64,000 bases of DNA from Siderastrea siderea (taxonomy: Eukaryota > Cnidaria > Anthozoa > Scleractinia > Rhizangiidae): NCBI GenBank assembly GCA_964030785.1, contig OZ034968.1, forward strand, positions 25,051,686 to 25,115,685, in the 5' to 3' direction. Below the pieces are notes generated by a model. The model saw only the letters and a program-made list of their open reading frames with translations, was not told the DNA's origin and did not search any database. Shown here piece after piece: positions 31,301 through 62,370 of this stretch. The translations under genes and the position numbers were made by a program. Every line of letters starts with the position of its first letter. Position 1 is the stretch's first letter.

Positions 31301-32354
31301 GCCTTTATCCTAGTAGTCACATAAATGCATTTCTTTTGACCTAAAAGGATCATTTCATTTTTTTACGATTTATCAAATTTCTTACTGGTCGCAGCTGGTT
31401 TCTTGGGCCTCAAAACTGAAGAAATCACGCACATTGCAGTTACTATAAAAAAATAGCAATTCGCTGAAGAGGCCCAATTCTCCATTTAATCTACAGATAC
31501 ACCTTTCTAGTTTGCCTAGCCATATCACAATTATAAAAATCACTTTGTTATTTTAACGGCAATGATATGTTTCTCCAAACACATAATCGGGCTCCAATCG
31601 AAACACGAAACCAGCCCAACTTTGAGGGCACATTAAAAAAATGTGGCACCTGTTTGGAGCTTTCACCCTAAATAAAAGTAAACTAGAAATGACAGAACAT
31701 TCGAAATAAGAGTAAAATTTGTATGCACTTTAGATTTTTAAAATTGATAACCGTTTGAATTTTAAGAAATCTCGAAAACATGTCAATAAACAAACACTTG
31801 CCTTCCCCGAGTACTCGGGTCAGCTTGTCATCTCTGATGGCTTTCTTGTTTTCAAGTGTGGAGTTTTGACAGCATAAATCGTCCCTGAATCCTGTAAAGC
31901 ATCGATTACGTGTAGTTTTCTGCCAGCGACAAGTTTCTACCGCCGTCTTTACCTGGTTTGTAATGGTCGTTTTCATTCGTAGCGAGCGTGACGCGTTCGT
32001 GACATCGGAACTTTGGTGCTCTCTGCCGGCTCCTGTCGGTTTTAAAGCGGGTTTGATGGTGCAGATTGCCCTTGGAGATAATGCAGAGTCAACCTTGGGG
32101 CTACAAAGACATTTCTTAAGCAAACGGTGTGAAAATATGGAGAAAGTACAGCAGGCGATTTCGCTGAAATGAACTTTGAAATATTCGTTTCCAGTCCCCT
32201 GCACTAATATGAAGCCGCAAATTAAAAAGTGCCGTGATACGGACAATGAAAGGGAAGTGTTCTTTTTCCGAACTGGCCAAATCCAGCTGCGGTGACTTTC
32301 GGGGCTCAACCCGTATGGTGTGTAGATTACGAGAATGCCAAGAAGACATAACAG

Positions 32355-35300: not shown

Positions 35301-36953
35301 AAAGCAGGACGTGGTTGAAAATTTAAGCTGTAGCTCAAATTTAATTATCATGGATTGGGCCATGAAGTTTCTTCAAATGCGATATCGCGAAAAACAGAGC
35401 GATTGGTTTGGTAAAAGAGGCCTTAGCTGGCACATTAGCAGTGTTATATCCCGTGATGCTTCAACTGGAAAACATCAAGTTACGTCCTTCGCTCATTTAT
35501 TTGATCAGTGTACCCACGATTGGTACGCAGTGGCATCAATAATTGAACATCTGCTACAACATTTGAAAACCTAGAACCCCGGCCTTGAAAGTGTTCATTT
35601 AAGATCTGATGAGGCGGTCTGCTATCACAGTAACTTCTTGTTTGCCGCAGTTGGAGACATTGGACAACGAGATGGAATCGCAGTGGAGTCCTATGAATTC
35701 TCTGAGCCCCAGAGTGGAAAAGATGTGTGTGACAGGATTCTTTGCCCTCTGAAGTCTTCTGTTCGAACCCATTGTTCAAGAGTTCATGATATTCTGACGG
35801 CGTCCGATATGTGGGAAGCTCTTCAGAAGCATCCTGTTAGGGGGGCAACTGCTGCAGTTAGTATGGTGGATGAATCAAAGAAAAGCCTTCAATTAAAAAA
35901 GATTGAGAATTTTAGCAGTTTTCACAATTTCAACTTTGAGCCGTCGGGAATCCGAGCAAGAAAAGCCTGTTACAATTGTTCGGGGAATGCTTTTGCCTTA
36001 TGACACGGTCTATGTCGAACACCAAGTGGCAACCGACATTCAAACAGAAGACCCCACAAAATCATTTTTTGAGCCAACTAAGGAAAGAGAACTGAATCCA
36101 AAGAAAAAGGTTTTCTCCTCAAAAAGGGAGCCAGCTCCAGAAGGAAGCCCCACTCTTTTCGAGTGTTTATTTCCAGGATGTTCGCAGGCTTTTTGATTTA
36201 TTTTCCGATCTTGAATTGCACCTTGATGTAGGCGAGCACACCACAAATCCTGCACAACGGGAGAAGAGTGAAAGCTTATACGACAAAATCAGAAAAGAAT
36301 GGGCAGCGAAATTTGCGTCAGTGAATGTAGCCCTTAAACAATCCACTGCAACTTTGACGGCTTCCTCTGCTGAGTCAGCAAAGGCGCAACCCCTCCAAAT
36401 GGGATGGGCAATCAGTAAGACCCACTCAGGTTCTACTCGATTTTCTCCCCGAGTGAAAGAATATCTGACGGCCAAATGTGAGATTGGAGAACGAACAGGT
36501 CGTAAAGCAGATCCTGCTCAAGTTGAAAAGGATATGAGAAATGCACGAAACCCATCGAATGAACGACTTTTTAACTCCAAAGAGTGGTTAACAAAATCCC
36601 AAATACAAAGCTTCTTCTCCAGGCTTCCAGCGTCCAGGCGCAAGGAAAGAGGAATTGTTGGATTATCAGTAGAACAGGAGGAAGACGTTGAATGTCTTGT
36701 GGACGATGCCGAGCGTCAGGGCTTAATGGCGAAGATAACTGATGAGGTTGGGCTGAGGCATCCGATCACCTACGACATTTATGATCTATGTGAATTGCAT
36801 CAGCGCAATAAGCTTTCAACTTTTAATATTCCAATGCTAAAAAACATTCTTTCCCATCTCGACATCAGTTTCAAGTCAAAAGGGAAAAAAGCAAGTCTGG
36901 TGCAAAGGTTATCAGTGAATGCGAGTGTGATGCCTCCCTCTACGAACACTTAA
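32355..36953 (+). pseudogene. broken zinc-finger DDE-type transposase, at least three exons
   Basis: Exon 1 (32355-32640) contains CKRTTFQSLTGIPECELI and a C..H..C..H cluster (VCPKHR, then CQYPLH), ending in phase 1 at GTGAGT. Exon 2 (33734-33848) reads AICTSCVKKHKQKF. Exon 3 starts at 34431. It contains DWAMKFLQMRYREKQSDWFG, SWHISSVI, HLRSDEAVCYHSNF, FSEPQSGKDVCD and, near 36150-36240, a C2H2-like finger (FECLFPGC..HLDVGEH) split by a frameshift. The order matches a widespread invertebrate transposon protein known to me from uncharacterised cnidarian predictions. Lesions include TAG at 34621, frameshifts near 34680, 34915 and 35130, an apparent deletion near 35300, TAG at 35572, and frameshifts near 35990 and 36190. 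The final 245 codons are open to TAA at 36951. Confidence 0.75.
32670..32965. repeat. possible retroelement 3' fragment inside the transposase intron
   Basis: The sequence around CGACGTTTCAACTGC then CTTCATCAGGCGATGAGG resembles the conserved 3' region of common cnidarian Penelope-like elements, from memory. No boundaries or coding sequence were seen. Confidence 0.2.
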
Positions 36954-39009
36954 AGTAAAGTCCTGTTACGTGTGATGGGCGGTGCTTAACTCCGATTTCT
37001 GTGGCAAAAAGCAACCGGGAGTATAACTATTAATACCCTGCTGGGATGCTAGTCCATCACAGGGTTATCTCCAGTACTTTTACACCGGTACTAATTTATA
37101 CACCTGGGGGGAAGGAAAAGTTTCTTGCCTTATCCTTATTTATAATCTTCGCGGCTCGAGGAGGGACCCCCAGTTTACCGGTAGGTTATTGGCGTTCCCA
37201 ACTGCGTCAAGATGACAGTCCAGTCCACGGGGCAGTTTATATAACCGTGCACAGGATCAGGAAGACTGGGGACGAAAACGTAAATGTTCTCAGGAACACA
37301 ACAGTACTGTCTGCGGTACATTTGAACGTTCATTCCTCAGTTTTTATCCTCCTATATTCGGTTGGGATATGATGAAAATCTCAATGATATATCTACGTTA
37401 TTCAAAGGAGTAGCTTACACGCGCATCATGGCTAGTCGTGTACTGGCTAGCAAAGAAGAGAAAGTTCGGAAGTTACGAAGCCGTCACGCGTCTGTTCGTC
37501 ACAAAATGAATGCGGCCATTACAAAGCGGGTAAAGACGGCGGTAGAAACTTGTCGCTGGTGGAAAACTACACGCAATCGATGCTTTACAGGATTCAGGGG
37601 CGATTCATGCTGTCAAAACTCCACGCTTGAAAACAAGAAAGCCATCAGAGATGATAAACTGACCCGAGTACTCGGATACACAGGAAAAAAACCCAAAAAT
37701 CCAGGCCTGATTTAACTTGTTTTTAACTTGGAAATTTGCTGGATTTCATGGAAAATCCAGGTTTGGAAAAATTGCAATTTATCCAGAGTTGGGAAGGCAA
37801 GTGTTTGTTTATTGACATGTTTTCGATATTTCTTAAAGTTCAAACGATTATCAATTTTAAAAATCTAGAGTGTATACAAATTTTATTCTTGTTTCGAATT
37901 TTTTGTTATTTCTAGTTTCCTTTTGTGTAGGAAGGAAGTTCCAATCAGGTGCCACTTTTTTTAATGTGCCCTCAAAGTTGGGCTGTTTTCGTGTTTCGAT
38001 TGGAGCCCGATTATGTGTTTGTAGAAACATATTATTGCCATTTAATAAAATGACAAAGTGATTTATAATTGTGATATGGCAAGGCAAACTAGAAAGGTGT
38101 ATCTGTAGATTAAATGGAGAATTGGGCCTCTTCAATGAATTGCTATTTTTTTATAGTAACTGCAATGTGCGTGATTTCTTCAGTTTTGAGGCCCAAGAAA
38201 CCAGCCGCGACCAGTAAGAACTTTGATCAATCGTAAAAAAATTAAATGTTCCTTTTGGGTCAAAAGAAATACATTTCTGTGACTACTACAATATAGGCTC
38301 AGTTTAAATCACAGAATATAAGAAAATTTCATTTTTTTTCCAAAATCATTGGTCGTTCCTTAGGGAGACACACTCTTAAGATTTCAGACCTTAAAATTTT
38401 TCTCAAAATAGACAAAACGGCAAACATCAAGTCCGTATTTTAATTTATTAGGCAAAGTATAGATAAAATCAAACCAAAATGATCAAAATCTAAGACCAAG
38501 ACTACAACGACCTAAAAACCAAACCCTATGGGCATCCCTACAAAGCTTACATGGGGAGTACTCCGCCTCGGGTGTGGTGTAAGCCAGCTGCAGACAAGCG
38601 CTCAACCAGGTGCGTAGGTTTCAGAGGTTCGTGTGGGGTTGTAAGGCCCAGATCTCAAAAACTTAACTCCACTTTAACCAAATGGGCAATTTTTCACACC
38701 CCATCTCAAAGCCAAATGGATAAGTCTATTCTCTGTTTTCGACCGAATAGGATAATCAAAATCCATAGGCACAAAAGAGGCCAATAGACCATATCCATTT
38801 GTGCTGGATAAACCTTTAATATCAAACACGAAGTTGAAAGAACTTGTTAAGTGATCATTTCCATTCTTTGTCATATCCTGTATGATTGGTTGGGGTAAAA
38901 GGCTTAATCATCCTTCTTACGTATACGGAATAGCATGAAATTTTGGCAGGAGTTTTATTTTGCGCTTTGAAGATACTGAAAACTATTAAAGTTACTAGAT
39001 ACGAAAAAT

Positions 39010-43215: not shown

Positions 43216-43785
43216 GTAAACAGTCCGGATTATCCCTATATTTAAGGACATTGATGACGTCACGAATCTATTGTTCACCATTAAAATGGCGGCCATTTTT
43301 TCGAATATCCCGGGCAACAATGAAATCCTTTGTCTGTAGAAACGCATGAGCGTCCATCCGGGACTTTTGGTTACGAAACATTGCGAGGAGTCTTCAGTGG
43401 CCATTTTGGATGCGAATTCAGAAGATTTGAGGCAGTGTTTTTGCAAATTTTCGAGGAAGAAACGCTACGATGTAGCGCCATTTTGTGTCGCGATTTCAAG
43501 GTAGGTGAACAATTTTCGTTTTTTACTCGATTCACGCATTTTTTGTGAAGCTCGCAGTATTTTTTGCCGTTTCTTATGTCGATAAAATTTCACCATGCCA
43601 AGTGCCAGCCTGGTAGACAAGCTAGATTTTCGGTTCAAGGCACTGTTTTTACCCAAAACCACTGTAACATGACACTTGAGAGTAACTTGATTGAACTGTG
43701 TTGTTTTGAACAGTTTTCGCTTTCTTGCTGACGAGAATGGACTTTTTATGTAATATGTTGTTTTCTTTAGGCTGTTTATCTTGGC

Positions 43786-45630
43786 ATGGAAGTGCACCGT
43801 GCGAGACTTGAGGCTCTTTGCCGAATTTGCGGGCAAAAAATTAAGGATCACAAGCGAAAAGTTGCAGCATCTAAGTTGACCACTGAAGTAAATAGAATAT
43901 GGCAAGTGTCTGTTTTGGTGGATTCACCAAATGTCCATCCAAGTTTTGTTTGCGTGAAATGCCGTCTTAGTTGTGGCAAGAATGAGTACCTTGAAGGTAA
44001 AATAAAAACTGCTACCGTCGCAAAAACATGGTATCCTCATGGTGAAAGTTGTGCTGTTTGTGAGTTACACCTGCAAACACGACGAGGGAGGCCATCAAAA
44101 GCCAAAAAAGCAAGGATGAGTGAAGGTGACTCGTTGAAGGGACATGAATATGAAAGTGGCACTGACTCAGCTTCAGAGGATGAAGCTCAATTACATGTAA
44201 GTTCTCCTCGAATCTACAGCTTTTCAATGGATTGTTTATGGGAATGCATTGGAAGGATACCAGAGCAAGACCAGCATGCAATCTTGGTGGAACTGTGCTC
44301 GTCTATTCCCAGACAGCAATTGGTGAAGCTGTTAAACCATGTAGAGGACCTCCATGTCCTGAGAGAAAGTAATTTATCAGACTCTCTTTGTGAAATGCCA
44401 GAAGATCTGCAGGCAAAAGTTGTGCATGAGGTTGTCCGGCTTCAGAAGCAAAAGATACAGGTGGACTGCCAGTCTTTTGCCCAAACCTACAAGGATCTAG
44501 GTACCTTGCAGAATTTTAGGGCAGTGGACTGGTTTTCGAGAAGAAATCTAATTGTGAAAGCTGTTGTGAATGGCCTTGCTTCCCCTGAGAAGAATCACTT
44601 TCACCGTTGTTTAGCTCTTGAACATCTCTACAATCTGCAAGGTGTGAACTTTGTTGGCCCATCTAGCTTCATGATCAATATCAGTCTTCTTGCCATTAGT
44701 AACTCAAAGCTGACGATAAACATGTTCGGCAAGGTTCTCCCTGGTGGATCATACTCAACCTTGAAAGTTTGGACAAGAGATCTCACCTCGGAAGCTAAGG
44801 AATTTCCTTCTGGAGACTGTATGGTTGCCATCGATAATGACCAGATCGTGCAACGGAAATGGAAAGTGAAAGTTGGGCAAAAGGCAAGGGTGAGTGTGGT
44901 TACAAGTGTTTGCCAGGCTGAGGTTGACAGTGGAGGTTCCTTGCAAACAAGAGGAGATCTTGCTCCAAGGTAATAATAATGTAGATGTAAGAAATATTAA
45001 ATTGTCCAATTATTATTGTGCAAGCTTATCATCATTGGTAGTTGGGATTAATTGCATCCAGGATGTCTTGAAAAGCACACATCTACTTTTAATTTCTTCT
45101 CTTGGAAAAATCATTTACTTGGTTGTGTCTCAATAAACTGTTGATTTCAATGCTTAAACAAACGTGGTCAGACTTGAGAAGAGCATGAAAAGCTTGTTTG
45201 GTTTCTCTGATACACTTCCAGATCCATGTACATTTGTTAACCAATCTAGTACTTTGTTTAAGTGTATGCTCCCAATTTAGTAGATGGAAATACATTCTAA
45301 TGCGTCTGTAATTAATGGAAACAGTACATTATGTTTTACACATAAGTGCTGATACAAGTCAGTTTGGATGCTTTTGTTAATTGTAGTTGTCATCTCACAT
45401 ACGTAGATGCTGGCAAGATGGTCTACACAAAGCCAAGGATGATGACAGTTTGCACAACCAACTCAGGAAGGGAATCCAGTTCACAGATAAGATGCAGGAG
45501 TTGCTGAGAAGAGAGGTACTGTTGCTAGTATTTTGCTTATCTGAAAACGACAACTAGTACCGCAGCTAAACCTCTCTTACTGGGACTTTGGAAACCTGCA
45601 ACTAACAACAGCTAATATAATGGTCATAAC

Positions 45631-45688
<58 letters not shown>

Positions 45689-48195
45689 TAACTTGCTACC
45701 CTGCTGTTCCTTAGAGATTTAAAGATTTGCATTTATATAATAATCCCAACTGCTTGATTGTAAACATTGTATTATTTTACATGTTTTAGTATATTATCTT
45801 CTGTTCTCTTTTGTCTCATATCATGGTAATGACTCTGAGGCAAAAGAAAATAGAAATTAAATTGGTTTGAAATTCCACCCTCCCCCCTCCCTCAAAAAGC
45901 TAACAAACAAATAAATCAAACCTTGACATAATTAGACCTCTACATTCCAATGTAATGCCCCCTCTTCCTGGGTGAGGTATTGGATTAAAATGTACAAAGG
46001 TGTCCTCAAATCTCTGCATCCTTTGAAGAACAAAACATTTTTATTTTTGTTTTTATTTTCAGAATAAGCTGTTGATTCAAGACTGTCTCAAGGAAGTTGT
46101 TTCTGAACAAATGGTTGAGAGTGGGTTGTTGAAAGATGATGTTGATTTGAAAGTCAAGGAAATTAACCTGCAAGAAAACAACCGGGTATGTCCCAATTGT
46201 GCAACTGTAATGCCAAAGACGAAACGAAAATGCATCAACAAAGAATGCAGAGTTGATTTGAAAGCAGCAGAGAGAAAGCTGTCTGGTGAAGACATCCTGG
46301 GCACAGCACTTGTGGAGCCGGTAAAAAAGTACCACTACAGGTTCAAGGAGAATGAAGTAGTCATGAATGTTGAGGATTCCAGTTTGCGCCAGGAGGTTAA
46401 GACAGTTCACGAAGAATTTGTTGCTGAATGGAGCCACGTCCCCTCCAACCATGCACCTAATGCTGTTAAAATTTCTGTTTCTGATCCAGTGTTTGTAAAT
46501 CCAAACTCTCAGAAGGCCGTCACTGAAGTGCTTCGTCGTGTTGGTTGCACAGCACGTGTAACACGTTATGGTTTCAGTGGTGCTGGTTCGCGAGAGTGGA
46601 TTACTGTAACCATGGATGGTCTTCCTTTCTTGATTGCTGTGAGCATTATAGAAGAGACAGTCATCTGTCTTGCCTGTGTCCAGAAAGAAGCCTCCGAGGC
46701 TGGTGCTGTTACCTTCTATGGTAAAGAATGGAAAGATCATTTAAAGGCCTTCCATAAGGATGAGGAAAGTGTTGGTTGTGCTAAGGAATTCGATTGGGTT
46801 GTGCTGCGTATTGGTCCACTTCATGTAGAGATGAACATGGTTAAGACATTTTTTTCAGTGAACTGGGATGTCTTCATAAGTAGTTTGGCGAAGGAACTTG
46901 GATTCACTTCAGAAAGTGCCTTGAACTATGCAAAAGGAGCTAAAAACCATCACCATTCAATGACGATGCTAAACATCATGGAGCGAGGGAACTGGTGTGA
47001 GTTGCTGGTGCCATATGTTCGTGACAGAATGGCCAGTAAATTGCCAATGTCTGTCAATGACTATTTGTATCAGTGGATGCCTAACGTCAAATGCAGTAAT
47101 TACCTGTATCTATTCGAGCAAACTTGGCGCTATGTTGGCTCTGTGAGGATGTATCACATCGGCATCAGGCGGAACAACAGTGCATATGTCAACAGTGGTC
47201 AGACAGGATTTGCACCCTTGTTCAGTTCCAGGCCATTCACATCAAAGTATCAGCTAATTGAGTTGCAAGACAGGTAAGTTCAATCGATTCACAAATGGTT
47301 AATTTGTAAATGTTAATTTTGATTAGTGCCAGAAATTGTATCACAGTTTTTAACCCTTGAACCCCTAGGTCAAGAAGGGACCAGCATCTAATTTCTCCTA
47401 ACAATATCTCTGCTTAATCAAACAAAATGCTTATGAGAATAAGGGAAACGGTCACCTAGAAAAAAGGTCTTGATTGTAAGACAAATGCTCCTCATCAGTA
47501 CCAAAGGAAATGTGTGGAGATTAGTATGGAGAATATGCATGTTGACATTGGAGTTTAAAGGGTTAATGTTCACAGCCCATAACCTACAGATATAGAAGAC
47601 AGTAATGATCTTTAAAGATGTCATTTTTTTAAAAAACCCACCTTTCCAATGTATTATGCATGTACCTTGCTCTCCTCGAGACTGAGGAAAGTGACTGTTT
47701 GGTGATCAAAGTTGATAACATCCATTTACTTTTTTCCAAACATAGGCATGGGTTTGAAATTATGATAATTTTTGACAGGTAATCTTCTTTTTTTTTTTGC
47801 ACATTTAAACATGTAGATGTGAGCGTTCCCTTTACCCAGAAGAACTGAAGAATTTCATTGAGAAGCATGAAGCTGTTAGCACAAGTGGTAACAACTCCAA
47901 AGGGGAAGGCCTTGATGCCCAACTGGAGGAAATAAACAAATCCTCTAAATGCTGGGAGAATGGTGCAATGACGGCCAGAGAATGGTTGACAATATTTAGG
48001 AACCATGATGAGCTTACTAAGGTAACTTTGCTATTCAATCAAGGTTTTACACCGCTTTGCTATCTAGTTTAAGTAATACATGTTTTTTGCATTGAAGCGA
48101 TTTTTTCCAAACTGTATATACCAAAAAAAGTGTGAACCTTACATGCAAGTCAATCTCCAACCCCTTTAACTATTTAATGCAATAAATTATTATTA

Positions 48196-48241
<46 letters not shown>

Positions 48242-51200
48242 AAGTGAGACCGGAAAACAATATTATAATTATTAGTTAATCATTAGTAATACACCTCTCA
48301 TCAAATTAGAACCAGTGTTTCATAAATTTTAAATAAGCCTCTGTTGTAGGTAATATAAACTTAAATATCTAAGCAATTTTTAAAAAATTAATGCTTTATT
48401 CAATAAGTGATTTGAAACCGGGATACTATAGTGCAATACGTTTTCTACACTGTAAGACGCTCTTATACTCATATTTTTCTCCTTATATGGTAAAATGACG
48501 CTATAGTTGAATAATAATGATGATGATGATGATGTACGTTATTTACTTGTATTAATTCCCCGGGATGTTAAATTAATAGTAGAAAGTAGTGAACCCTAAA
48601 ACATCCCAGGGCATTGCTTTCTTTCTTGACTGTCCAATGGTGGTAGTTACTCAGAAGGAGTACCTTACTGTCCAAAGAGTTAATATGAAATATAATTTAA
48701 ATTACTGTAAAAGTTCTAATAGTCCTGCTCTCTAATACGCATTCTTACCTACTACTTGCTAATTACAAATAAATTATTTGCTTATAAATATGTCATGACA
48801 TTGGGGCTTGAAAATTATTTTATGTCTCAACTGATGCCAGGTATTATTTGAGCAGCCCCGCAGCTCTTAACAACCTCTAATTTCATTGGACCTTGGTATC
48901 ACGCAGCTCTATTGTTTTCGGGGCTAGGGTCCATTGTTTTGTTGCTTGGTGTATTGTTTTCTTAGCAAATCAGAGAAGACCTTGTAAGAGCTGCGACATT
49001 GCCCTATTATTTTACTGCCAGAGGAAGATGCAAAGAAGTGCAGCATTATGCATGTAGTTACTAACATGTAATTCAGGTGAATAAATTCATTCAACTATTT
49101 TAAGTACCAATCAGTCAATCAATCAACCACTCAACCAACTGGCTGATAAATCAGTCAATCAGCCAATTAAAAAATAAATCATTCAATCAATCAATCAATC
49201 AATCAATGAATCAGTCAATCAACAAATCAATAAATCAATCAATCTGTCACTTCAGTGTTGCCAATGCGAATAACAAATGGTCCAGTAATGACAAGTGACT
49301 TTATTTGATGCACAGATTATGACTCACTCTCTTACTACCCAAGACCGTGATGGCAGTAGATCTCGCGACTTAAGTTCTTTTTGGTTTGATAATTTGCCAC
49401 CAATAAGCATTGTTACTGATTGCTATAATCTGGTACCAAAGAAAAACAAAAGGAATAGCCTCTTCCTAAATCATTTCAGAATAGTCTGAAACTTAACAGG
49501 CAATGAACTGACAAAAAGGGATCAGTCTGTGGTGAATCAGTCAATCAATATAGTTTTCCCCATAAAGAGAATTCAATCAAATAGGTCTGACTCTTCATTC
49601 CTGGGATAGTAGCTGGGGGGGGGGGATACTCCCCCCAAAAAAGATATGGGGCAGGGTGTGCTCATCAGATATTTTGAAGTAGATCCCTAAAAGGTGTACT
49701 CCAGGATTCATTCCATTTTCATACATCGTCCACTTAGTAGTACTGAGGGGACAGTCAAACTAATCAATGACATCAAAATGTTAAGCAGAAAAAGACAAAA
49801 AAATATATAACCTTATTTCAAAACTGCTCTTCAAATTTTTTATTTGAATTGATAAAGTGTGTCTGGGAATATAGCTAAAAGTATAAATTTCTTAACCAAA
49901 CCCTTATAATAAACTGCCATATTTTCCTGACATCAGGTTGATGGAATAAAAACCTGTAAGAAAAACAAAGTAGATTTTAATTATCGCAATTACCAATAGT
50001 AGGACAGTCAGTGTGCACACGCCAGAGAAAAATGAGAGACTGCTCGTAGTCTATGAGAATGGTACCAACTTGGGCCGGTACGACTTCAGATCGACTCCAA
50101 ATGCTTACCTCTGTTTACACGAAATGTACGAAACATGAAGCTAGTATAAAATAATTATCATCTTAGGCTGTGTTTACACGAGTGATTTCATCCCGAGATG
50201 ACTTTCATATCGGTGTCTGGTCATTTACCTGTAAGTTTTTACATGGTTTGGAGCTGAAATGGTGTTTACCCCGGGACGATTTCATCCTGGTGCTGAAGAC
50301 CAGGATGAAATCGTCCTGGGGTGAACACATTTCAGCTCCAAATCATGTAAACATTTACAGGTAAATGACCAGACACCGCAATGAAAGTCACCCCGGGATG
50401 GGATAAAAGTGACATCCGGGGATAAAGTCACTCATGTAAACAGGGCCTTAGGCTGGTTTAACTCATCACTGCTGCTGAACCAATATGAATGACTCAGAAC
50501 GGTTTGAAATCAGACTGGGGAGCCACTTAAGCATGAACAGGGTCCCAATTGGTCTGAGATATTTGTTTTGGGTATGCACGTTTAACAAGTGGCGTTGGAG
50601 CATTCCAAGCTGTTGGATAATAGATAAACTGGATTTTTAAGGATGGGGTGGTTGCGGACCATATTAACACAAACAGAGTTTAGATTGGTCTCAGGTAAAG
50701 ACTTCATGCCAGTCTGACTTTCAGACCCGTCTCATGTAAACAAAATCATACCAGTCTGAGTTTGCACCGGTCTCATGAAATCAGGGCATTACTGCCCCTG
50801 GGTCTCTGAGGATGTTGTGAAACATTCTTAAGAGCTGCTCGACTTTAGGCTAAGGGGGTGTTTACATAATACCAGCATGATTTTCATTCTGGTACAAGTT
50901 CCTCCCGATTTCCTCTTGTTTCTCTGTATTTGTTTCATGATTACAGCACAAAATCTCATAACTGTACAAGTCATACCTGTGTGAGCTTGCCCCAGTAGTG
51001 GAACTGGGTCACAATAATCACCATGGTACGGAAACCCATACATGGTATAACTGTTTGATTCATTCTGCATTAAGTTTTAACCCTTTAACCACCAAGAATA
51101 AATCTTACATCACTGTAAAAATGGATTTTGTAACTTAAGTGGGTATAAGGTTTTCATCACCTACCCCATTGGAAGTCTTGATGGAACACTCATGTAAATG

Positions 51201-54200
51201 TTGTGATTTAATTTTATCCTTGGTTCAACTTTTATTTTCCTTTGTGAGTATTAGGATTGCCAAATTCTCTTTTTCCGAAAAGGCTGTTTTAGCCACCCAG
51301 TCTTCTATGTGTTTACACGACAATATAAAACAGATCATGCTCAAATTCCACACTACAGAAATTTGTGCTTGTTCTCACACACTTAAAGGCAGATGGTTTA
51401 AATATCTGGTATATTTGAATGATTTTAAAATTGTTTAACTGTGCTTAATTATGTTTGACTGGGTTCAGAAATTGGAATCGAACACTGCTGTATGCATATT
51501 ATTGGTTTAATTGTGTTCAACTACCAAACCCAAATTCAACCGATCATTGCATCTGACCCAGTTCATTTTACTGAACAGTAAGATAGTATGTAAGCTGGGA
51601 CAATTATATGATTGATATCTTCCCTGGCATACCTTCACTGTAAGAAAAGCTGCATCACTGATCACTGCTGACATATACATGCCTAGTATAGATAAAAAAG
51701 GATCAGTGAAAACAACAACTTCAGGGCTAAAAATTGACAGTCTCCTGGTTACCAGTAGCAATTTAAAACTGACCAGGGCCACTAAAAGTTGAGGTTTGTT
51801 TTTATTGACATGTGACTCCAGTCTTACTTAGAGTTCTACAGTATGTGGTAATTTTTCCACATGATTATTGGCGAAATCCCTGGTAAAAGACTTCTCATCC
51901 GGGGTGGGAGGGGTCTATTCAAGTAAATATGGTTTTAAATTTTTTGATTTAGACTAGAGGATTTTGAAAGCCACTTTATCTAAATGGCCTGGTCCACTAT
52001 ACTAAGTGAGCAAGTGAAAAGACCCTGGGGACGAGGTTGGAATTCAAGGATACTAGCCCCAGTTGCAATTCAATGATTCAAGCACTGAATTGAAGTTAAT
52101 TTTTTACCCTGCAAATTATGGAATAACTTAATCAGTAAAAGTAGAGAATGAGATGTACAAAAAAATTACATCCACCTGCTTTGAACTCGATTATCTTAAG
52201 CATATTTTCCCAAAAGTGATCATACCTAATTCGAAATTTAAATTTGTTGTTTGTCATCAAATCATACCAACTACATGTATAGCTTTGAACCTTACTTGAT
52301 CTAAGAAACATTCGTGAGTCATTAGATGTATATAAATAATTTGCTCGCAGTGAAGAAAAGCCCAGCTAATAAACAAATGGAGTTCCAGATAAAATAAAGT
52401 ATGTTATGTGTTATGTTATGTTGTTATGAGATGTTTACAACACGTAAGCTTAAATGATGCTACACAAAACAATTTAAGCTTATCTGCCAGTATCAACATT
52501 AGGAGAATAGCCTGACCTTCTTGCTTTAAGCAATAGCTGTTTGAAACATTATTTTTAACAGCAACGCTGTAATTAAAGTTACTGAAAACATAAAGGATGC
52601 GATGCTACACTTTTACGTGGCCAACAAATAACATACGATTCACAGACGAGCGTACAAAAACTACATCACTTCATATCACGTTTATTTAAAGACTTACGAA
52701 ACTTAATAAACTTTAGTTACCAACCTAAGTGTCTATCTTTCGGCTTTTTGCTACCGGAACGAAAATGGCAAATTATTTAAGCACTGGACTAACGATAAAT
52801 ATGAAACATTATACTATAATGATCGATCGGTAAAGCCCTGCTAATATATTAAGCTGTTTACCGAAGACAATAAAAAGCTATAATTACACGTACCTGACAT
52901 GAGCAATGCAACGAAAAATGAAGTGCTGTCCTCTTTCCGAGAAACCATTAACAATTCTTTAGCAGAAATGGACCACAGAAAGCTAAAACACCTTTTCACC
53001 CCATTTTTCAGCTTTTGTCGCTAGCTATGGCGCCGCGCCTAAAAAGTGCACCAGTCTTCCTAAGCAATCCGTGACATTGGTGCCCAGTACTCCGCGTGCC
53101 TGCAAATTCACATCCCTAAGCTATATGAAAACGAATTTTTTTTATAAAACTGTTAACGTAGTTAGAAAGAGCATAGTTTGAAACCAAATATGCTGATTCG
53201 TTTTTACATTTATATTAAAACCTCACAAAACAGGGGATTATCAAAAGTTTAAGGTTCATTTTTCATTGTGCTTTTTTCAAAAGGAAAAATAATAATGGAC
53301 GTTTTTGAATAACTTGCAATTTTTTCTGCAATATTACTGTGAGAAATTACGAATTTATTGAGCTTAAGGCAGTTTTAAAGTGATTTGAATTTTCTGTGCG
53401 CTCTGGTCACGTGACCAATGACGTCACAACAGTGAGCATATCATGGTCGTTACTTTCATGCGAAGTTCTATTAACCAGCCAAGCGTTGTTTCTCTCCGCC
53501 TTAAACTACCATAGCTACTGACTCCTTACCAGTCCCCTGGGAAATGCTCTTGTACAGAGCCACCTTAACTTTCAACTGCCAGATGTCAAGTGGCAATTTC
53601 CATATTGCCCATTCCAATGGCTATCAGGGCACGTTATCTGCTTTTGAATTGATGGAGGCCTGTTGTTGCAGTGAGCTAAAACATATTTTTGCCATAGTCA
53701 CGTGAATAATGACGTCATCACCCTAACGTTAATATGAGGGATAACTTTCACGAAGTTGTAAATAACACATGGTACAGCATTCTCTTCGACCACAAATTAA
53801 CTAAGTTATTTTGCATTGAAATTTTTCTGGTGCAAAGCATTCTGGGAAGGTTCTTATTATAATTATAATATTGTTTTTAATTATTATTTGTACATTGTAG
53901 CTGAGGAGTACTACATTCTCCTGGATTGGAATGAAGGATCCTAAAGATGAAGCTCAATTGTCCAGAAAGAGGGATGACATCGGCAAGGAAATTCTGGCTT
54001 GGCGCGTAAAACTAAGACGTGAAAGGTTAGAAAGTGCTTTTTAGTTACAAGTTTGGGTAGAAGGGCTTTACAAGACACCACATATCAATTGAAACTGAAG
54101 AACCAAATTTATTTCTCCGACAACTTGGGATCAAATTTCATATTGTTAAATATTCTGGTGAATGGGCTACATTATGGCCTGGCAGCCATGATCTGTACAA

Positions 54201-54738
54201 AAGAACCAGTGTTTCATTTATTCAGCGTGTTACTACTTATTTATGGAAACTGAGATGTACATTTATTCATATCAGACTTATTTTCCTCTCCACTTGCAGT
54301 TACTTGATCAACCCATTTGACGAGAAGACCCACACATCTCTTGATGGTAAGCCTTTGGACAAAAGTCTGGTGGATCTTACTGATATTGCAAGTTCCAACA
54401 GAGAAATCGTGTTTGAAGAGGTTCTCATCAAAGGTAGCCAGAGAGCAGACCTGCCATTAACAACTCTGTACGTGACACAAGAAGAGAGGGAGGCAGCATC
54501 CCAGCTTGCTAACATTAAAAAGGCAGATCTAGTTAAAATGATTGAAGATCTTATTGTTAAGATTAAGGATGATTCTTCACTTGAATTTTTTAAGGAAAAG
54601 CTAAGCCTTATTCAGAAGAGGTTGTCATCAACCAAAAAGGAAGTCATAATCTCTCTTTATGAAGACATTAGCCAGCTGCTGAAGAGAGATGACTTGGATT
54701 ATGAAGAGAATGTACATGAAGCAGTTGAAGATGTCTGA
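43786..54738 (+). CDS. transposase-like protein: RAG1-N-like zinc module, AT-hook, DUF6589-like core
   Basis: Coding exons read by eye are 43786-44889, 45387-45515, 46063-47273, 47817-48021, 53901-54025 and 54300-54738, with a likely untranslated part upstream (exon ending 43500, then 43771-43785). All junctions are GT..AG and frame-consistent and give about 1070 residues. Residues 11-16 are LCRICG. Next come HPSFVCVKC (51-59) and WYPHGESCAVC (82-92), the same Cys/His order as the RAG1 N-terminal zinc-binding region. RRGRPSK (99-105) is an AT-hook. A second zinc motif has C454, C457, C468 and C473. VTMDGLPF (about 593-600) offers an acidic candidate residue, and GPLHVEMNMVK (662-672) sits where DUF6589 proteins have a GDWH-type motif. 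The C-terminus is Lys/Glu-rich and helical. Every listed exon is free of stops, so the gene may be functional. The DUF6589 link is from memory. Confidence 0.7.
45633..45689. repeat. (ATT)n microsatellite in the third intron of the transposase gene
   Basis: About 18 ATT units; a similar run lies at 48185-48240 in the large intron. Confidence 0.95.
48022..53900 (+). other. 5.9-kb intron of the transposase gene
   Basis: The intron runs from the GTAACT donor at 48022 to the TACATTGTAG acceptor ending 53900. It holds an (ATT)n run (48185-48240), a TCAA-type low-complexity stretch (49105-49245), a palindromic MITE (50163-50450) and a single terminus of a TTAA element (GAGCCACC then TTAA near 53560). 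No coding exon was found inside, so other elements seem to have enlarged it. Confidence 0.55.
50163..50450. mobile_element. palindromic MITE of about 290 bp
   Basis: The left arm (TTAGGCTGTGTTTACACGAG, then TGATTTCATCCC) and the right arm (GATAAAGTCACTCATGTAAACAGGGCCTTA) are inverted copies. The similarity continues to the centre at CATCCTGGTGCTGAAGACCAGGATG, so the single strand would fold into one long hairpin. It has no coding capacity. Related TGTTTACA or CATGTAAAC fragments continue to about 50870. Confidence 0.7.
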
Positions 54739-55785
54739 CTTCAATAGTATGCAAATGGAACAAGTACAGTAGAATCGTAATAAATCGAACCATCAAGGGA
54801 AACTCAAAACTGTTTGTGTTAGCAAAAGTTCGAGATATCGGGGGTTAGAATACTGTTATGAATCAGGCTGAGTCAACTGATATCAGTTGGAGTTAATGAG
54901 AGGCTTGAGTTATTGAGGGTTCGAGTTTGATTGAGATGCTACTGTATTTGCTTTTTTTATGTGAACATGTATATTTAGTTCACATCTGCCATGTAAATAG
55001 AGAAGGAAATAAAGAGAAAATAGACCAATTTTTTCCCCGTACATAATACTATTTGATTTTCATATTTTTATCCATTAATTGTTGACAGTGTCCATACTTT
55101 AGGTAAGAAATAATTAATTAATGCTGCAATTATGTATATTTTGGTTATGATTTTTACAGGTATATTGTAAATAAATTAGATTTCTAATATAAGATTTATC
55201 ATCTGATGTCTTCTTTTGGATTGTGTTGAACAATGTTAACTATTTGTTTCCTCAGAATATTCATCTTTAATAACCAAAATTAGTGTACTCTAAATTCTTT
55301 ATCTCAGAACTGTAACATCAAATGTAGAAAGAATATACTTCAAATAGTCCCTAATTTCTTTGGGAATAGTCAAATGGGTAAACATGCAAATGAGCAAGAA
55401 AAATAGATCCCACGCATGATTGTTGAACATACTCGCATGTTTCACTCATCAAACTATCCATGAGAGATATAAGGGGCTTATATTAATCTAACAAGAACAA
55501 CAAGATAACAAACAAAAGCAAAGTCATTAATCACTTGCATTCCCAATTCAAAACTTCTGGGTGCCTTATTTCTGGTTTGGGAACCTAACATTTCACTGCC
55601 TCTGAGCTTTGTATACTTGGCATTTTTCTTAGGAACCAGCCCTGAAAATGTGAGTTTTAAGGCCAACTTACAGTAGGCTTGCTATCTTTTTTGTGTCATT
55701 TCTGCCTTAAATGTTTCCCTTGGGGCTCTAGAGAATCCCTCTGCTCATGTTTGTTTGAATCTGTCATACAGATGACATGGTAAGA

Positions 55786-56175
55786 ACTGTGAACTGCTGG
55801 AATAACTAAACTTGACTCTTTTTTTTGTGCTTGTATTTAAATGGCTATTACAAGTGTTATGCACCAGTTAATTTCAGCAGTGCCCATTCCTCCCCCCCCC
55901 CCCCCGGGCACAAGTCAGGCATTTTATTACATTCGAATCCCAGGGGTCGAGTATTAGCCAAACCCAGAGTGTACCCTGGGACACCTGACATTCTTGTGTT
56001 TTCAACCTAACTTGCTGGTGATAGATGGGTGTAATTTTCCTTCTTTTTTAATGTACCCTGCTGCATTTGAACATTTTCGTTGTGGTATACACCATGCCTT
56101 TGAGTTTTCTTGGGGGGACATGGACCCTACTGAAATCGACCGATGCATATTGTTACCATCATTAACATCAACAAG
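55786..56175 (+). repeat. internal direct repeat of the large element, copy 1
   Basis: This segment and 58525-58895 share TGTGAACTGCTGG/C, CTTGACTCTTTTTTTTGTGC, a C run followed by GGGCAC, CAGGCATTTTATTACATTCG and GGTATACACCATGCC, in the same order and direction. Copy 1 has a C run of about 15 bases. The reverse complement also appears in the derivative at 28540-28860. Confidence 0.8.
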
Positions 56176-56293
56176 ACATTGAATTCTTTTTTTCTATTTT
56201 ATACAGACAAACTTGCTAAAAAATGAAGCTAATTTGGGTCAAGTAAAATTATTTGTTAGAGTGTTTTATTGGTGTGGATTATTAGATGCAGTC

Positions 56294-57119
56294 TTAAACC
56301 TCATTTGGCCCCCTGCACATGTCTCCGTCCAGTACCACTGGTATTGGCTTGTTTGCTAACAATTGTCTTACTGGCTCTGGCATATTCCCGTCGCCAGACA
56401 CTGTTGAACTCACATTGAGACGTTTACGAGATCTTGGTTCACCAACTATCGCGGAAACTCTACCAGTATTATTCCGACCAGATGTAGGACTAGGTGTTAC
56501 CTCCAGTGTGCAAACAACTGCGCCATTGTTCGGATTGTTGCAACTTTCTCCATCTCCATCCCGCACTTCCTCTTTGCCAGTGCCATGTAATCTTCCACCG
56601 AGATACTCTTCTCGTAATGGTCCAGTTCCATAAAACCTTCGCTCTCGGTTGTTTTGAACTATAACAAGAACGTCTGCGCCGGTCATTCCATTTAACTTGA
56701 ATCCAGATTGAAATAAGCTTTTCCGACGCTGATACAAAACTTTAGATCGTTGGCGAGGGTCACCTATAAATTTAACTACCTCTTTTCCTCTTTTTGTCCT
56801 CTTGCGACCCTTGTCTTGATGTTGATTCTTGTCTTCCCTGAGAAAACAAGTAAAATTGAACCGTGAAATAAATATTCACGTGGATGCGAAATGAGCCAAA
56901 CGAGTTTCGCGTATTGTCGCACATAAATCGGCTCTTGTGCGGGCTTGGATTTTAGAAAAACAGTTTCTAACAACAGGGCAATAAATAGAAACCTTCTTGG
57001 TGCCCTTACTTTGATTTATCCTCTTGATTTGAGTCGTTTTTGGAGGAATCATTCCCATTAGAATCCATTTTTGTCGCCAGCCGATCGACTCGTTGAGATT
57101 CCTCACAGCTTGTAAACAT
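56294..57119 (-). CDS. MADS/SRF-like DNA-binding protein encoded in a transposon
   Basis: Exon 1 (57119-57010) starts MFTSCEESQRVDRL and is Ser/Asn/Asp-rich. A GTAAGG donor follows, and exon 2 (56837-56294) starts after TTTTCTCAG in the matching phase and ends TAA; total 217 residues. Residues 47-110 read GRKRTKRGKEVVKFIGDP, then RQRSKVLYQRRKSLFQSGFK, then LNGMTGADVLVIVQNNRE. This follows the MADS box: a basic start, an R-x-Y/F-x-x-R-K helix, the K-G-F/Y-x-L step, and the L-T-G/A-x-x-V-L-V strand of the dimer core. The remainder (111-217) is Gly/Asn/Pro-rich with no known domain. By family knowledge it would bind A/T-rich CArG-like DNA as a dimer; that and its role in the element are inference. 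It is stop-free. A shorter start at Met18 is possible. Confidence 0.6.
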
Positions 57120-57363
57120 CCGGTTCATCCATTTCAACCAATCACACTTGCAGCAGTCACAATGCCATAGTGTCTAAGCCAATGGAAAGTCGACATTTTT
57201 CGCCGGGAAAACGTCGCGCGAACTAATGTCACATGCTGCTTTTAGCTGCTTTTGCTAGTGTGGAGTTGGTAGTAGCAAGGATTTTAGCCGTTTGGAGAGA
57301 GTATTTCTTCGAATTTCCCATGGAATATGGCGAAACGAGGTCAGTAAGTTTGCCCCTACTGTT
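56736..57363. promoter_or_regulatory. divergent promoter region between the MADS-like gene and the third gene (57120-57363)
   Basis: The ATGs at 57119 (minus) and 57364 (plus) are 244 bp apart and face away from each other, so the control region is shared. It contains a CCAAT box on both strands (AACCAATC near 57137 and AGCCAATGG near 57178) and GC-richer sequence (GCCGGGAAAACGTCGCGCG near 57200-57218). No clear TATA box is seen. The listed start includes the 5' part of the minus gene; the core is 57120-57363. Confidence 0.35.
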
Positions 57364-58293
57364 ATGAAGACTAGGTCAGTTAATGATTCAAATCATATTC
57401 GCCGTTTTTATGTACTAGACCGCAGTTTTCTGGATGAAGGGGAAGACTTGGAAATGGACATGATGATGGCGGTACAGATCACAAATGGCATGATCAAAGG
57501 GTAAGCCTCGAAGCTTAAAGATTTCAAGTACTTTGCTCTGGGAAATATCTTGTTAAATAAACATGGAGATGTTGAACTCAGCTTTTCATTTTTAGGTACC
57601 ATGAATTTGGAATCAAGTTGCCTGTTGGCTGCCGAGTGAATGTCGAAAGGGAGGACTCGAGCGTGGCTAAAGACGAGTAAGCACTATTATGTAAGGTCCC
57701 GCAAGATCTCGATGAGGAAACGAAGCGGACGGTTATGAGGAGCAAGTCGAAGAGGAAGGAATATAGAGTTAGTGACGTGATGGGGAAACCAATTGGCCGG
57801 GTGCAGTACTTCCTCAACAAGACCTCCATCCAGCTGTTGGAAGAAGGCAAAGTGAAGTCTGTTAATGGGTTAGTGTTCTTTTTGTCCTACAATTCATGTA
57901 ATGATTTGCTTCGTGAGCCACAAATCAATAGATTTTAGGGCTTTGCATTTATTCTTAAACCTGGCCAAATGTTGATCAGGCCTTAAGTCTCTTATGCCAC
58001 TGCTTCCAAAAATACCAGTACCAGGGAATACTGTCACATCTTGTTTGGAAAGTGTCACCACAAGTTCTAATTTACATATTCAGGTTATGGTTTTATTTTG
58101 TTTGAATTCTCTCCTCTCCAGATCAAAATAAAATTTTCTGTTTCTCTGTTACAGTTGTATCACTGGAGAGCCAACAGCCAGCAGGAAACCACCAACCACA
58201 CAGAAGTGGCAACAGAACAGACAGGCTGGTGGGGGGCAGTCATCCCCTGCTCGTGGATTCTTCAAGTATCTAGGGGAATGGAGCAAAGGGTAA
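57364..58293 (+). pseudogene. third gene of the large element, three exons, one in-frame stop
   Basis: Exon 1 (57364-57500) reads MKTRSVNDSNHIRRFYVLDR.., a GTAAGC donor follows; exon 2 (57596-57868) reads YHEFGIKLPVGCRVNVERE.. and later EYRVSDVMGKPIGRVQYFLN; exon 3 (58155-58293) reads CITGEPTASRKPP.. to TAA. All three joins are phase 2 and frame-consistent. A single TAA at 57678-57680 breaks exon 2; without it the frame would have 181 sense codons. As written the product is about 73 residues. No domain is firmly recognised. The SKSKRKEYRVSDVMGKPIGR segment faintly recalls methyl-CpG-binding folds, which I rate as weak. Confidence 0.5.
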
Positions 58294-58524
58294 AGGAGAT
58301 TGTGGAATCCCGTCTACCTGATATCGAGGGCCATAAAAGCATGGAAGTTAAGGTTTGTAGGTAGCACTGAAATGTAATTATTCTTCCATTAATTATGCTA
58401 AAAACTATGCACACATAAATTACTTATGAACAGGATGAAAGCAGTTGTGGTCAACACTGACTAAATCTGTCATTTGTTTCAGATCCTGCATTCAGCGAAG
58501 AGAAAATTTCACGGAACTGTGAAT

Positions 58525-58895
58525 CTGTGAACTGCTGCAATAACAACACTTGACTCTTTTTTTTGTGCTTGTATTTTTGTATTTAAATGGTTATTATGCA
58601 TCAGTTAATTTAAGCAGTACCAATTCCTCCCCCCCCGGGCACTAGTCAGGCATTTTATTACATTCGAATCCCAGGAGTCGAATATTAGCCAAACCCAGAG
58701 TGTACCCTGGGGCACCCGACATTCTTGTGTTTTGAACCTTACTTGCTGGTGATTAGATAGGTGGAATTTTCCTTCTTTTTAAAATTTGTACCCTGCTGCA
58801 TTTGAACATTTTTTTTTTGGTATACACCATGCCTTTGAGTTGGCTTGGGAGGACATGGACCCTACTGAAATTGACTGATGTATACTGTTACCATC
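58525..58895 (+). repeat. internal direct repeat of the large element, copy 2
   Basis: Direct copy of 55786-56175 with a shorter C run and small indels. It lies just beyond the third gene. Confidence 0.8.
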
Positions 58896-59332
58896 AAAAT
58901 GAGAAAATACTGTACATGGTGGATAAAAGGTTGAAACTACTGTGCAGGGTGGAAAAATAAAGAAAGTAGATTTTCAAGACTGCATCTGTTTTGTATACTT
59001 TATTTAAATTTCCAAGAAAACCTTGACAAAACCTCTTAACCTCTTGGTAAATTTTTCTTATTCATTCTTATTCACTAATCATTCTTATACATTTTTTAAA
59101 ATACAACACAAATAACCCACTCTCCAGTTGACTGAATTTGATGTTAAATTAATCTGAAACTACTGAACATGCACACCAAAAGATCTATTAAAATCATCCA
59201 AGAATAAAACTGATGAAGGAATCTTCCCCCTGTCAACCCTGACTCTTTCTGCATCATTCACAGCATATAGTATAAATCTATAGTAGTACTTGGACAAGAA
59301 GGAATACAGTTTTCTTTGAGTTAACTTAAAAT

Positions 59333-59770
59333 TTATTTACAATGATGATACGAGGTTGCAACATGCAACCACGGATGTCCTGTCGATTTTAACCCACAAA
59401 TCGCTCGATAGATGTGGCATTTATTTGAACATCTAAATCGATTCTGTGCTTCAGAAAAATGACGATCCAATAGAATAGGGTGACAATAGGGAGCAGAGAT
59501 GCTTACCAATTCTATGGTCTCTTTCCAAAGAAAGATAACTAGTAGGTCGATAAACCATCGTTGCTCGCAGTTCCAAATTTTGCGTTTGTTGCGTTTTCTT
59601 CTGTCCGAGGACAAACTACGTTATCCAAGGCGTTTTGTCTGTGATATTGAACAAAAACCAACGGTTCTCTTCATGGCAGAACTTAAATTCAATTCGAGCA
59701 CTCTCGTGATGTATATACCTTCCGAAGAAACCTATTACAAAGCTCTCGCGGCTCTCGCTTCGTCCGCCAT
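59333..59770 (-). pseudogene. decayed minus-strand frame at the right end of the large element
   Basis: ATG at 59770 starts MADEARAARAL, followed by two stops. The same frame then reads VSSEGIYITRVLELNLSSAM. A one-base shift follows, and the shifted frame runs FNITDKTPW.. The overlapping frame 59614-59333 is open and matches the one at 27503-27781 in the derivative. The two copies share the same start and many residues, so this was probably a coding exon near the element's right terminus. Function unknown. Confidence 0.35.
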
Positions 59771-59886
59771 CTTGAATTTTTATGGTTTGTTTTGAAACGC
59801 GATACTCGAATCACATCCTGCATTCTCATTGGTTGAAACGCGAGCCACGCCTGCCCTTAAATATAGGGATAATCCGGACTGGTAAA

Positions 59887-60750: not shown

Positions 60751-62370
60751 TCAAAATGCAAAGACCACAAAAGGGCATGCGGTGATGACGACGGCGCTGA
60801 TCATTGGTACTGCGGCAGCATTGCAGAGGTCACCAGTGCAACAGTCGATTTTACACTCTTTTTCCTTACAGAAGTCGGTCTTTGGGAAAGCATCGCAATC
60901 CGCTGCAGATACACAGCCTTTCTCGTAGCCTTTAACTGAAACTCCGTCTTCCTTACCGCTTACAAACGCCTTAGAACAGCGGTTCTCGTCAGCAGAGCAA
61001 TTTACCTCTTTCTTAACGCTCGCACAGTCATCCCAGCTTTTGGTGCTCACGCAGCGATAACACTTCAAGCCATCATATCCTACAAAAGAATGCACATTGA
61101 AAACTCATTGAAAACTTGGTGAATGAATGACTAAATTAAGTCAGTATAAACCGTTGAAATACTGGCTAGACTAATTCCATAAAATTGCTCATAACATGCA
61201 TGCAATGACTCAGAAATGCGGAAGTTAGCCGAGGTTGAAGTTGTTGACTGCAAAATACATAACCATCCCTTTTCACTGAAATCCATAGACGAGCCGAGTC
61301 TATCCATGGTAATTTTTCGTTCAAAAAATAACTTGAGGGTTAGCGGGTTGTCAATTAAACTGCTGTTTATTTCAGCGCAAATATGGCTGTGAAACATTTC
61401 CCATTCAACACTCTTCGGTCGGGTTTGCATCTACTGAAATCAGTTGTAAATTTCTTACCTTTATTGAAACGTTTTGTTTCGATTTGTTTGCTCGTTCAGC
61501 TAGCAGCTAAATGCGAGACTATAAAAAAATATTTGTATGACAAATTGGCCCATTTTAAATCTAACGAAGTTGACGAAAATTAACAGGCTTTCGGCATCTC
61601 CTGTGAACAGAGGACGCGTTCATTTAACTGTTTGTGCTAACAAATGTCTTGTTCAAGTGCGGAAAGTATGCACTATTCCGCTTTCGGCCCAACTTAGAAA
61701 ACACCAAAATGTTTTGTCAGATATACCAGATACAAACTGTAACACACGACAAATCTGTTAATGGAAGCTCTTAGTCGTTTACTGGCTTCTAAGTATAAAA
61801 ATGCGCACAGAAAACCCTGTGTACACCAACAAGGCGTTGTTTTGGGACAGATTATAAGCTATATGGGCGCTGGCTGACTTACTTTAACCGGAAACTTGGT
61901 GGCATTCTTATCTGTTCTTAGTGCACATGGTAATAATTTCAGCAACAGTTTTTTCTCTCTCACTACCAAGTCCGCTTGGCTTGTTAAAACGCGAGCCTGA
62001 ATTCACATAACAAATTCTTTCTTCATGATATCACAATCGATCAAGCTCTGTGAAACTGCATCACTTAGCTTTAGAATCGAACACTAAAACAATCTACGCT
62101 AATTCGTCTAACTGCACGCGAAAGCATAACAGTAAGCAATCAACAAATGTTATTGCTTTTAAACAAAACCAGCATGTCTTAACGCTGCTATTAACTAGCC
62201 ACTAATTGAAGTAACGCATCTCAGTATGTATATATAGTACATCATCGATCGTTGAATGGACATTTAGCTCGAAACTGAACAATGTAAAGCGAATCAATTT
62301 GTAAACAACAATGGTGGAACTTACCGACGGAGATGCACAGAAGAATAGCGAGAACAGCAAGCAACTTCAT
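60751..62370 (-). CDS. secreted, GPI-anchored Ly6/uPAR (LU, three-finger) domain protein
   Basis: Exon 1 (62370-62325) encodes the signal peptide MKLLAVLAILLCISV and ends in phase 1 at GTAAGT. Exon 2 (61079-60751) follows TTCTTTTGTAG and ends TGA; total 124 residues. The mature part opens GYDGLKCYRC, the usual LU start (L-x-C-Y-x-C). It has 12 cysteines (22, 25, 34, 43, 50, 71, 77, 86, 91, 95, 96, 101) and closes CCTGDLCN, the family signature C-C-x(4)-C-N. The last 22 residues are hydrophobic without a basic tail, as in GPI-attachment signals, with cleavage likely near N102. It would sit on the outer cell surface; ligand unknown. Two coding exons with a 1.2-kb intron. It appears intact, the best-supported host gene in the window. 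Confidence 0.85.

Follow-up and report, generated by a model that had tools for sequence, protein, structure and literature searches.

A probable three-gene family of cut-and-paste transposons in Siderastrea siderea, with a RAG1-N-like transposase and a MADS-like gene

What kind of mobile element carries, between one pair of inverted repeats, a transposase-like gene, a MADS-like gene and a third gene? The question is raised by a 64,000-nt stretch of the Siderastrea siderea genome (assembly GCA_964030785.1, contig OZ034968.1, positions 25,051,686 to 25,115,685 of the forward strand), here called the window, in which a 16,661-bp insertion occupies positions 43221-59881. The analysis indicates, with a probability of about 0.78, that this large element is one copy of an autonomous family of three-gene cut-and-paste transposons, with a 1,090-residue transposase, a MADS protein as its second component and the product of the third gene (gene 3) as its third. 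The same gene set occurs in distantly related loci, and the element therefore seems to represent a kind of mobile DNA not recognised before.

The boundaries of the large element are sharply defined. The sequence GTAAA stands on both flanks as a target-site duplication (43216-43220 and 59882-59886), and both sides terminate in a perfect 27-bp inverted repeat (43221-43247 on the plus strand and 59855-59881 on the minus strand), whose termini read CAGTCC (CAGT..ACTG) and are of the CA..TG type. A search of the window for the 16-bp end sequence CAGTCCGGATTATCCC, allowing up to two mismatches, found four sites, all exact, against a chance expectation of 0.04; they are both ends of the large element and both ends of a second, smaller element at 27226-30178.

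The genome search covered an 831-Mb assembly, in which every match of the family falls on contigs C1 to C14, and its match counts are lower bounds. The left 550 bp of the large element have at least 42 matches, equal to 40 loci after two split rows were merged: the window copy, copies A, B and C with 97% identity to it over this segment, copy D (C1:62.88 Mb) with 81%, the small element of the window, and 34 others. Copies A (contig C4; 11,110 bp) and B (contig C1; 11,052 bp) have exactly the same ends and their own duplications, GTCAG and TTCAC, while in the near-full copy C (contig C3; about 10.8 kb) the ends are altered and a clean duplication is lacking. Independent copies with the same termini and their own 5-bp duplications, together with the transposase frame that is open in three copies out of four, are as expected of a cut-and-paste transposon. 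The sequence-only reading of the window had proposed that matching termini flanked by GTAAA define one insertion, and this holds; copies ending at other points, which it had named as contrary evidence, did not appear, and the intact full-length copies stop at identical points. Its length of 16.7 kb is correct for the insertion in the window and too long for the family, since about 5.6 kb inside intron 4 of the window copy (approximately 48240-53851, beside an (ATT)n run) are missing from copies A, B and C, leaving an element proper of about 11.05 kb. Intron 4 also holds a palindromic insert resembling a miniature inverted-repeat transposable element (about 50166-50447), which has the ends GGC..GCC and TTA on both sides.

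The small element (minus strand, opposite in orientation to the large one) is 2,953 bp long, has a 30-bp inverted repeat and is flanked on both sides by the target-site duplication GTTTA. It is an internally deleted relative without a transposase, in which only the first 550 bp and three blocks from the right-hand part of the large element survive; its main blocks are 84-91% identical to those of the large element by BLAST, with Kimura two-parameter distances of 0.063-0.079 over three blocks. The 3′ end of the MADS-like gene is retained, with tblastn matching residues 129-200 as two segments (E 2.9e-17). For twenty of the 34 other left-end loci, sequence was read where the far end of a small-type element should lie, and in 14 of these both ends are present, about 2.95 kb apart. 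The 5-bp duplications of the two-ended loci are exact in 10 of 14 and have at most one mismatch in 12 of 14; in a control with mis-paired flanks, 62 of 13,045 trials matched. Up to 34 loci besides the small element of the window are a non-autonomous subfamily. Across all 14 exact duplications (ten small-type loci, both window elements, and copies A and B), the target sites fit NTNAN, with T in 14/14 and A in 11/14.

The transposase gene lies on the plus strand and has six GT-AG exons (43786-44969, 45407-45515, 46063-47273, 47817-48021, 53901-54025 and, ending with the stop, 54300-54738) that join into a single open frame of 1,090 residues; the splice sites of exon 2 are kept in copies A, B and C. 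The transposase-like gene with stop-free exons described from the sequence alone is borne out by this frame, which is intact in three of the four near-full copies (window, A and B); copy C has stops. Moreover, divergence is lower in coding than in noncoding DNA, both in one comparison (36/4225 versus 96/6625; Fisher p 0.005) and in a second (31/4216 versus 97/6658; Fisher p 0.0007). Relatives of 977-1,101 residues are three Branchiostoma proteins (P0001, P0003 and P0004), which match over the whole length or nearly so, and two further proteins. None was found in viral contigs or prokaryote genomes, a protein search with a three-sequence transposase alignment returned none at E 0.001, and an NCBIfam search gave nothing of weight (best E 0.044).

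The first exon encodes a RAG1-N-like domain. Residues 1-113 of the window protein score above the Pfam cutoff for RAG1_imp_bd (PF12560), which is matched by all six proteins and above the cutoff by five of them, and a search of the PDB with the six-protein profile recovers RAG1 (E 1.6e-14). Further along, D350 (exon 1, in the motif AIDNDQ) is invariant in the six proteins whose N-terminal half is aligned, and D616, C633, C636, H662, H685 and E687 (exon 3) and E872 (exon 4, in the motif LEExNK) are invariant in all ten proteins compared, with H657 in nine of ten. These residues include the motifs C633xxC636, H657x4H662 and LH, and the two aspartates are 266 residues apart. Together with the CA..TG ends, they suggest that the enzyme is a DDE transposase close to the CMCT clade; its core is probably an RNase-H-like domain of this kind, and membership of the clade is not demonstrated. 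Conservation is the sole basis for assigning the catalytic residues, and the putative catalytic glutamate is either E872 or E687. In RAG1, the histidine pair follows LH, but here it precedes it.

The MADS-like gene lies on the minus strand and has two exons, 57010-57068 and 56294-56837, the second with the MADS box, which together encode 200 residues; the same codons are open in copies A and B. In the codon test, the gene scores 0.184 bits per codon, against a maximum of 0.086 in 2,772 background windows of equal length. The window protein alone reaches 19.8 bits, below the SRF-TF (PF00319) cutoff of 26, and it is through its relatives in four diverged families, all of which pass that cutoff (31.8, 42.5, 31.8 and 32.7 bits), that the gene proposed from the sequence proves real. 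All 18 PDB matches of a five-protein MADS profile at E <=0.01 are MADS proteins, including MCM1 (E 2.9e-11) and SRF (E 2.9e-10). The MADS box is thus common to these proteins and the SRF/MCM1-type proteins; unlike the latter, the element's MADS proteins are about 200 amino acids long, are encoded beside a transposase and have a C-terminal part that had no match in the libraries searched. No MADS relatives were found in viral contigs.

The gene set is conserved beyond the close copies. All four diverged families for which the sequence 3′ of the MADS gene was also read carry the three genes in the same order and orientation, with MADS downstream of the transposase on the opposite strand and gene 3 beyond MADS. 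Identity to the core of the window transposase is 50% at C5:50.94 Mb, 47% at C1:30.51 Mb, 58% at C2:32.94 Mb (where the N-terminal transposase exon is outside the stretch read) and 48% at C6:27.88 Mb; the E-values, each from a single-locus search, range from 2e-18 to 8e-32 for MADS and from 2e-17 to 4e-28 for gene 3. Genome-wide, 13 of the 48 MADS matches listed begin at or before residue 70 and so contain part of the MADS box, and for 10 of these 13 a transposase match is no more than 13 kb away; 34 of the 35 matches confined to the tail have a left end of the family within 15 kb. Conversely, of 19 transposase loci, drawn from 179 candidates of which 42 were scored, 10 have a MADS-box match no more than 13 kb away; the remaining nine are copy C, which has lost most of MADS exon 2, and eight loci with partial transposase matches. 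In the C1:30.5 Mb family, tandem repeats of 97 bp also precede the transposase, at about 1164-1480 of the stretch read.

Gene 3, on the plus strand, is predicted to have a first exon at 57327-57339 and a second at 57419-57500, both taken from a gene model, and a third whose conserved part is 57596-57868, its 3′ exons not being settled. About 90 residues of the predicted protein are conserved in all five families, and as DNA the first part of the gene is found in five places, namely the window copy and copies A, B, C and D. No Pfam family scored above its cutoff, and the best PDB match had an E-value of 0.81. The third gene claimed for the insertion travels with the element and its families, with an interruption in the window copy that is discussed below. 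Splicing around that interruption was considered and dropped, since the intron would be shorter than about 40 bases. An 87% direct repeat (55787-56161 and 58525-58896, both on the plus strand) brackets the MADS and third genes and is also present in copies A and B, while the small element retains a different subset; this pattern suggests an old tandem duplication with later losses.

What might a MADS protein do for a transposon? A CC(A/T)9GG box lies in each end of the large element (43235-43247 and 59855-59867), and within the window copy it occurs solely there. Among the ends kept for comparison, a set that lacks copy C and nine of 53 ends with more than two mismatches in the terminal 16 bp, the box is present in 37 of 44, compared with none in the 44,386 background bases of the window outside the two elements. 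Its presence in the ends, together with the conserved MADS gene, suggests that the MADS protein may bind there. Further, the MADS gene and gene 3 are divergently oriented, their starts separated by about 260 bp, so that a promoter shared by the two is another possible target of the MADS protein.

On the preferred interpretation, the mechanism would be as follows. The 1,090-residue protein would act as the transposase, with an N-terminus that is homologous to the RAG1 N-terminal region and presumably binds zinc, and a core that is probably an RNase-H-like DDE domain using D350, D616 and either E872 or E687. It would excise the element at its CAGTC ends and join it to a staggered cut, generating the 5-bp duplication at NTNAN sites. 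The MADS protein most likely would bind CC(A/T)9GG in the ends or the element's promoters, assisting or regulating the transposase, and the gene 3 product would serve as a conserved third component. Copies with intact ends and open frames may still be active. A comparable arrangement is found in PIF/Harbinger transposons, which are two-protein systems with a transposase and a separate Myb-like (Myb/SANT) DNA-binding protein. The present element likewise combines a transposase with a separate DNA-binding protein, but its partner is of the MADS-box and not the Myb-like kind, and its ends and duplication differ.

Several observations weigh against the interpretation of the element as an autonomous three-gene transposon with a DDE transposase. 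Gene 3 of the window copy is cut by an in-frame TAA at 57678-57680, where copies A, B and C have no stop and stay open as far as they were read, and in the C5 family this gene also has an in-frame stop; the first exon of the C6 family is broken, and the core at C1:30.51 Mb is split between two frames. The ends of the C5, C1 and C2 families were not found in the stretches read with exact seeds and a relaxed scan, nor those of the C6 family with exact seeds in all but the last 5 kb of its stretch, so that the mobility of the diverged families is not demonstrated. The sequence-only reading had expected that internal genes without termini at orthologous loci would speak against a transposon; the four diverged loci do hold the genes with no ends found, but they are not orthologous insertions. 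At C8:51.9 Mb, MADS is present with no gene 3 in the 4 kb read, and at C14:28.47 Mb and C2:37.35 Mb neither gene is present in the 4-5 kb read. Moreover, three of the 13 MADS-box matches have no transposase match nearby (C14:16060709, C7:30118089 and C9:37899085); these weak matches may be host MADS genes or unseen elements.

The same caution extends to the proteins and to the proposed binding site. The ratio of nonsynonymous to synonymous differences per site (pN/pS) of the transposase among close copies is 0.54-1.13, giving no clear signal of selection. Two wrong frames of the MADS DNA score 0.106 and 0.116, above the background maximum, but contain 10 and 12 stops. The Pfam RAG1-core family matched none of the six transposase proteins. 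In an hhalign comparison of low power, using a single mouse RAG1 core sequence, the six-sequence transposase core scored 17.0 against 30 column-shuffled controls (mean 16.0, maximum 23.9), and an earlier three-sequence comparison with the mouse RAG1 core gave P 0.14-0.19; kinship of the two cores is not demonstrated, because the profile score falls within the shuffled range. The DUF6589-like character that had been attributed to the transposase, along with the RAG1-N-like character that stood, is seen below threshold: all six proteins match DUF6589 (PF20231), with 11.2-17.6 bits against a cutoff of 27 (best E 0.0017), and no paper on this family was found in the open-access literature. The 44 ends are not independent, because they come from related copies, and the idea of a MADS site arose after inspection of the sequence. 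The MEF2-type consensus, YTAWWWWTAR, fits six of the 44 ends (those of the window copy, A and B) and none of the small-type ends, and occurs 28 times in the background on both strands.

How much of this element is new depends in part on N-RAG-TP, a transposon of Aplysia whose protein resembles the N-terminus of RAG1 alone (Panchin and Moroz 2008, as described in PMC8355894). The chance that the large element is a member of this kind is close to even, in which case its transposase would be known and solely its MADS and third genes new; this is compatible with the preferred interpretation. N-RAG-TP, available for comparison by description alone, is presented as a transposable element with a RAG1-N-like sequence (PMC8355894), a feature that it has in common with the large element, and a RAG1-N domain with no RAG1 core detected is as that identity would predict. 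On the other side, none of the five transposase relatives found is labelled molluscan, two of the five carrying no name. The descriptions of N-RAG-TP in the citing papers, as far as they go, mention neither a MADS nor a third gene, and no MADS partner of a transposon was found in narrow open-access literature searches that did not cover Repbase. Transposons bearing a RAG1-N domain are already known, namely N-RAG-TP and, with the Chapa domain, TransibSU and Chapaev. The sequence-only reading had taken the whole combination to be undescribed; the RAG1-N half of it may be known, and the MADS half is the part not found in the literature searched.

A more doubtful identity is that of a Chapaev or Transib-type element, in which a Chapa domain would form the N-terminus and a divergent transposase of the CMCT clade the core. 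The CMCT clade (CACTA, Mirage, Chapaev, Plavaka and ESTA) is described as having C(2)C and H(3-4)H motifs between the second D and the last E, mostly CA..TG ends and 2-5 bp duplications (in the relevant part of PMC12730594). In favour of this identity stand the RAG1-N or Chapa-type domain (Chapaev having the Chapa domain), the CA..TG ends, a 5-bp duplication within this range and motifs resembling C(2)C, LH and H(4)H, for which, however, the histidine pair stands ahead of LH and the reference residues are conservation-based assignments. Chapaev itself has C(2)C, LH and H(4)H motifs, 5′-CAC..GTG-3′ termini and 3-4 bp duplications (according to the description in PMC4079192); unlike it, the large element has CAGT ends, a 5-bp duplication, the motif order C2C-H4H-LH and aspartates 266 residues apart. 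Elements of the Transib/RAGL group (ProtoRAG and TransibSU) and RAG1-RAG2 have the RAG1 N-terminal domain (in RAGL), a 5-bp duplication and CA ends in common with it, and RAGL also has two genes; their termini are CAC where PMC8355894 describes them. Differing from them, the large element has CAGT ends, no RAG1 core detected in sequence comparisons and a MADS partner in place of the kelch RAG2L. The histidine pair before LH, unlike that of RAG1, the lack of a Pfam RAG1-core match in all six proteins and the shuffled-level profile score, low-powered as that comparison is, likewise speak against this identity.

It is far less probable that a single element picked up the MADS and third genes as passengers that have no role in transposition. 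Host genes can be captured by transposons, and losses do occur: in copy C, MADS exon 2 is largely missing, and both the window copy and the C5 family have a disrupted gene 3. However, the same genes in the same order and orientation in all four diverged families argue against a single capture, as does a MADS pN/pS of 0-0.30 in three pairs, with just 3 to 5 changes per pair. That unrelated repeats and a host gene cluster lie by chance or misassembly between coincidental inverted repeats is practically negligible, as other contigs carry copies with the same ends and their own duplications.

If the autonomous three-gene transposon is taken as the best explanation, a bolder version of it would be an undescribed animal superfamily with a three-protein machine, in which a DDE transposase headed by a RAG1-N domain, without a RAG1 core, works with MADS as an obligate partner on a CArG-like box and with the third protein, and whose lineage would be the source or sister of the RAG1 N-terminal region. 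This remains speculative and is on balance unlikely, but it touches a disputed point: the N-terminal region of RAG1 has been attributed to an N-RAG-TP transposon joined to Transib (PMC8355894, in its account of the debate) or to an ancestral Chapa domain of Transib and Chapaev, and Kapitonov and Koonin state that no other known transposable elements encode the Chapa domain. Here a homologous domain is joined to a core not shown to be of Transib or Chapaev kind, which bears on this origin; since there are full-length copies that have defined ends and keep the transposase frame open, the question can be tested in cells. Were a MADS-box protein indeed a conserved part of a transposon, it would represent a novel type of partner and might offer transcription-factor genes a way to spread.

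Further features lie in the window outside the two elements. A separate 7,160-bp element at 31221-38380 has inverted arms of about 0.8 kb that are 87-91% identical, with the 8-bp duplication ATTTCAGA on both sides. Two tRNA genes, at 11049-11120 on the minus strand and 11270-11341 on the plus strand, are located inside the arms of a 98% inverted repeat. Just outside the large element, an open frame at 60754-61104 on the minus strand encodes a u-PAR/Ly-6 domain (E 8e-9).

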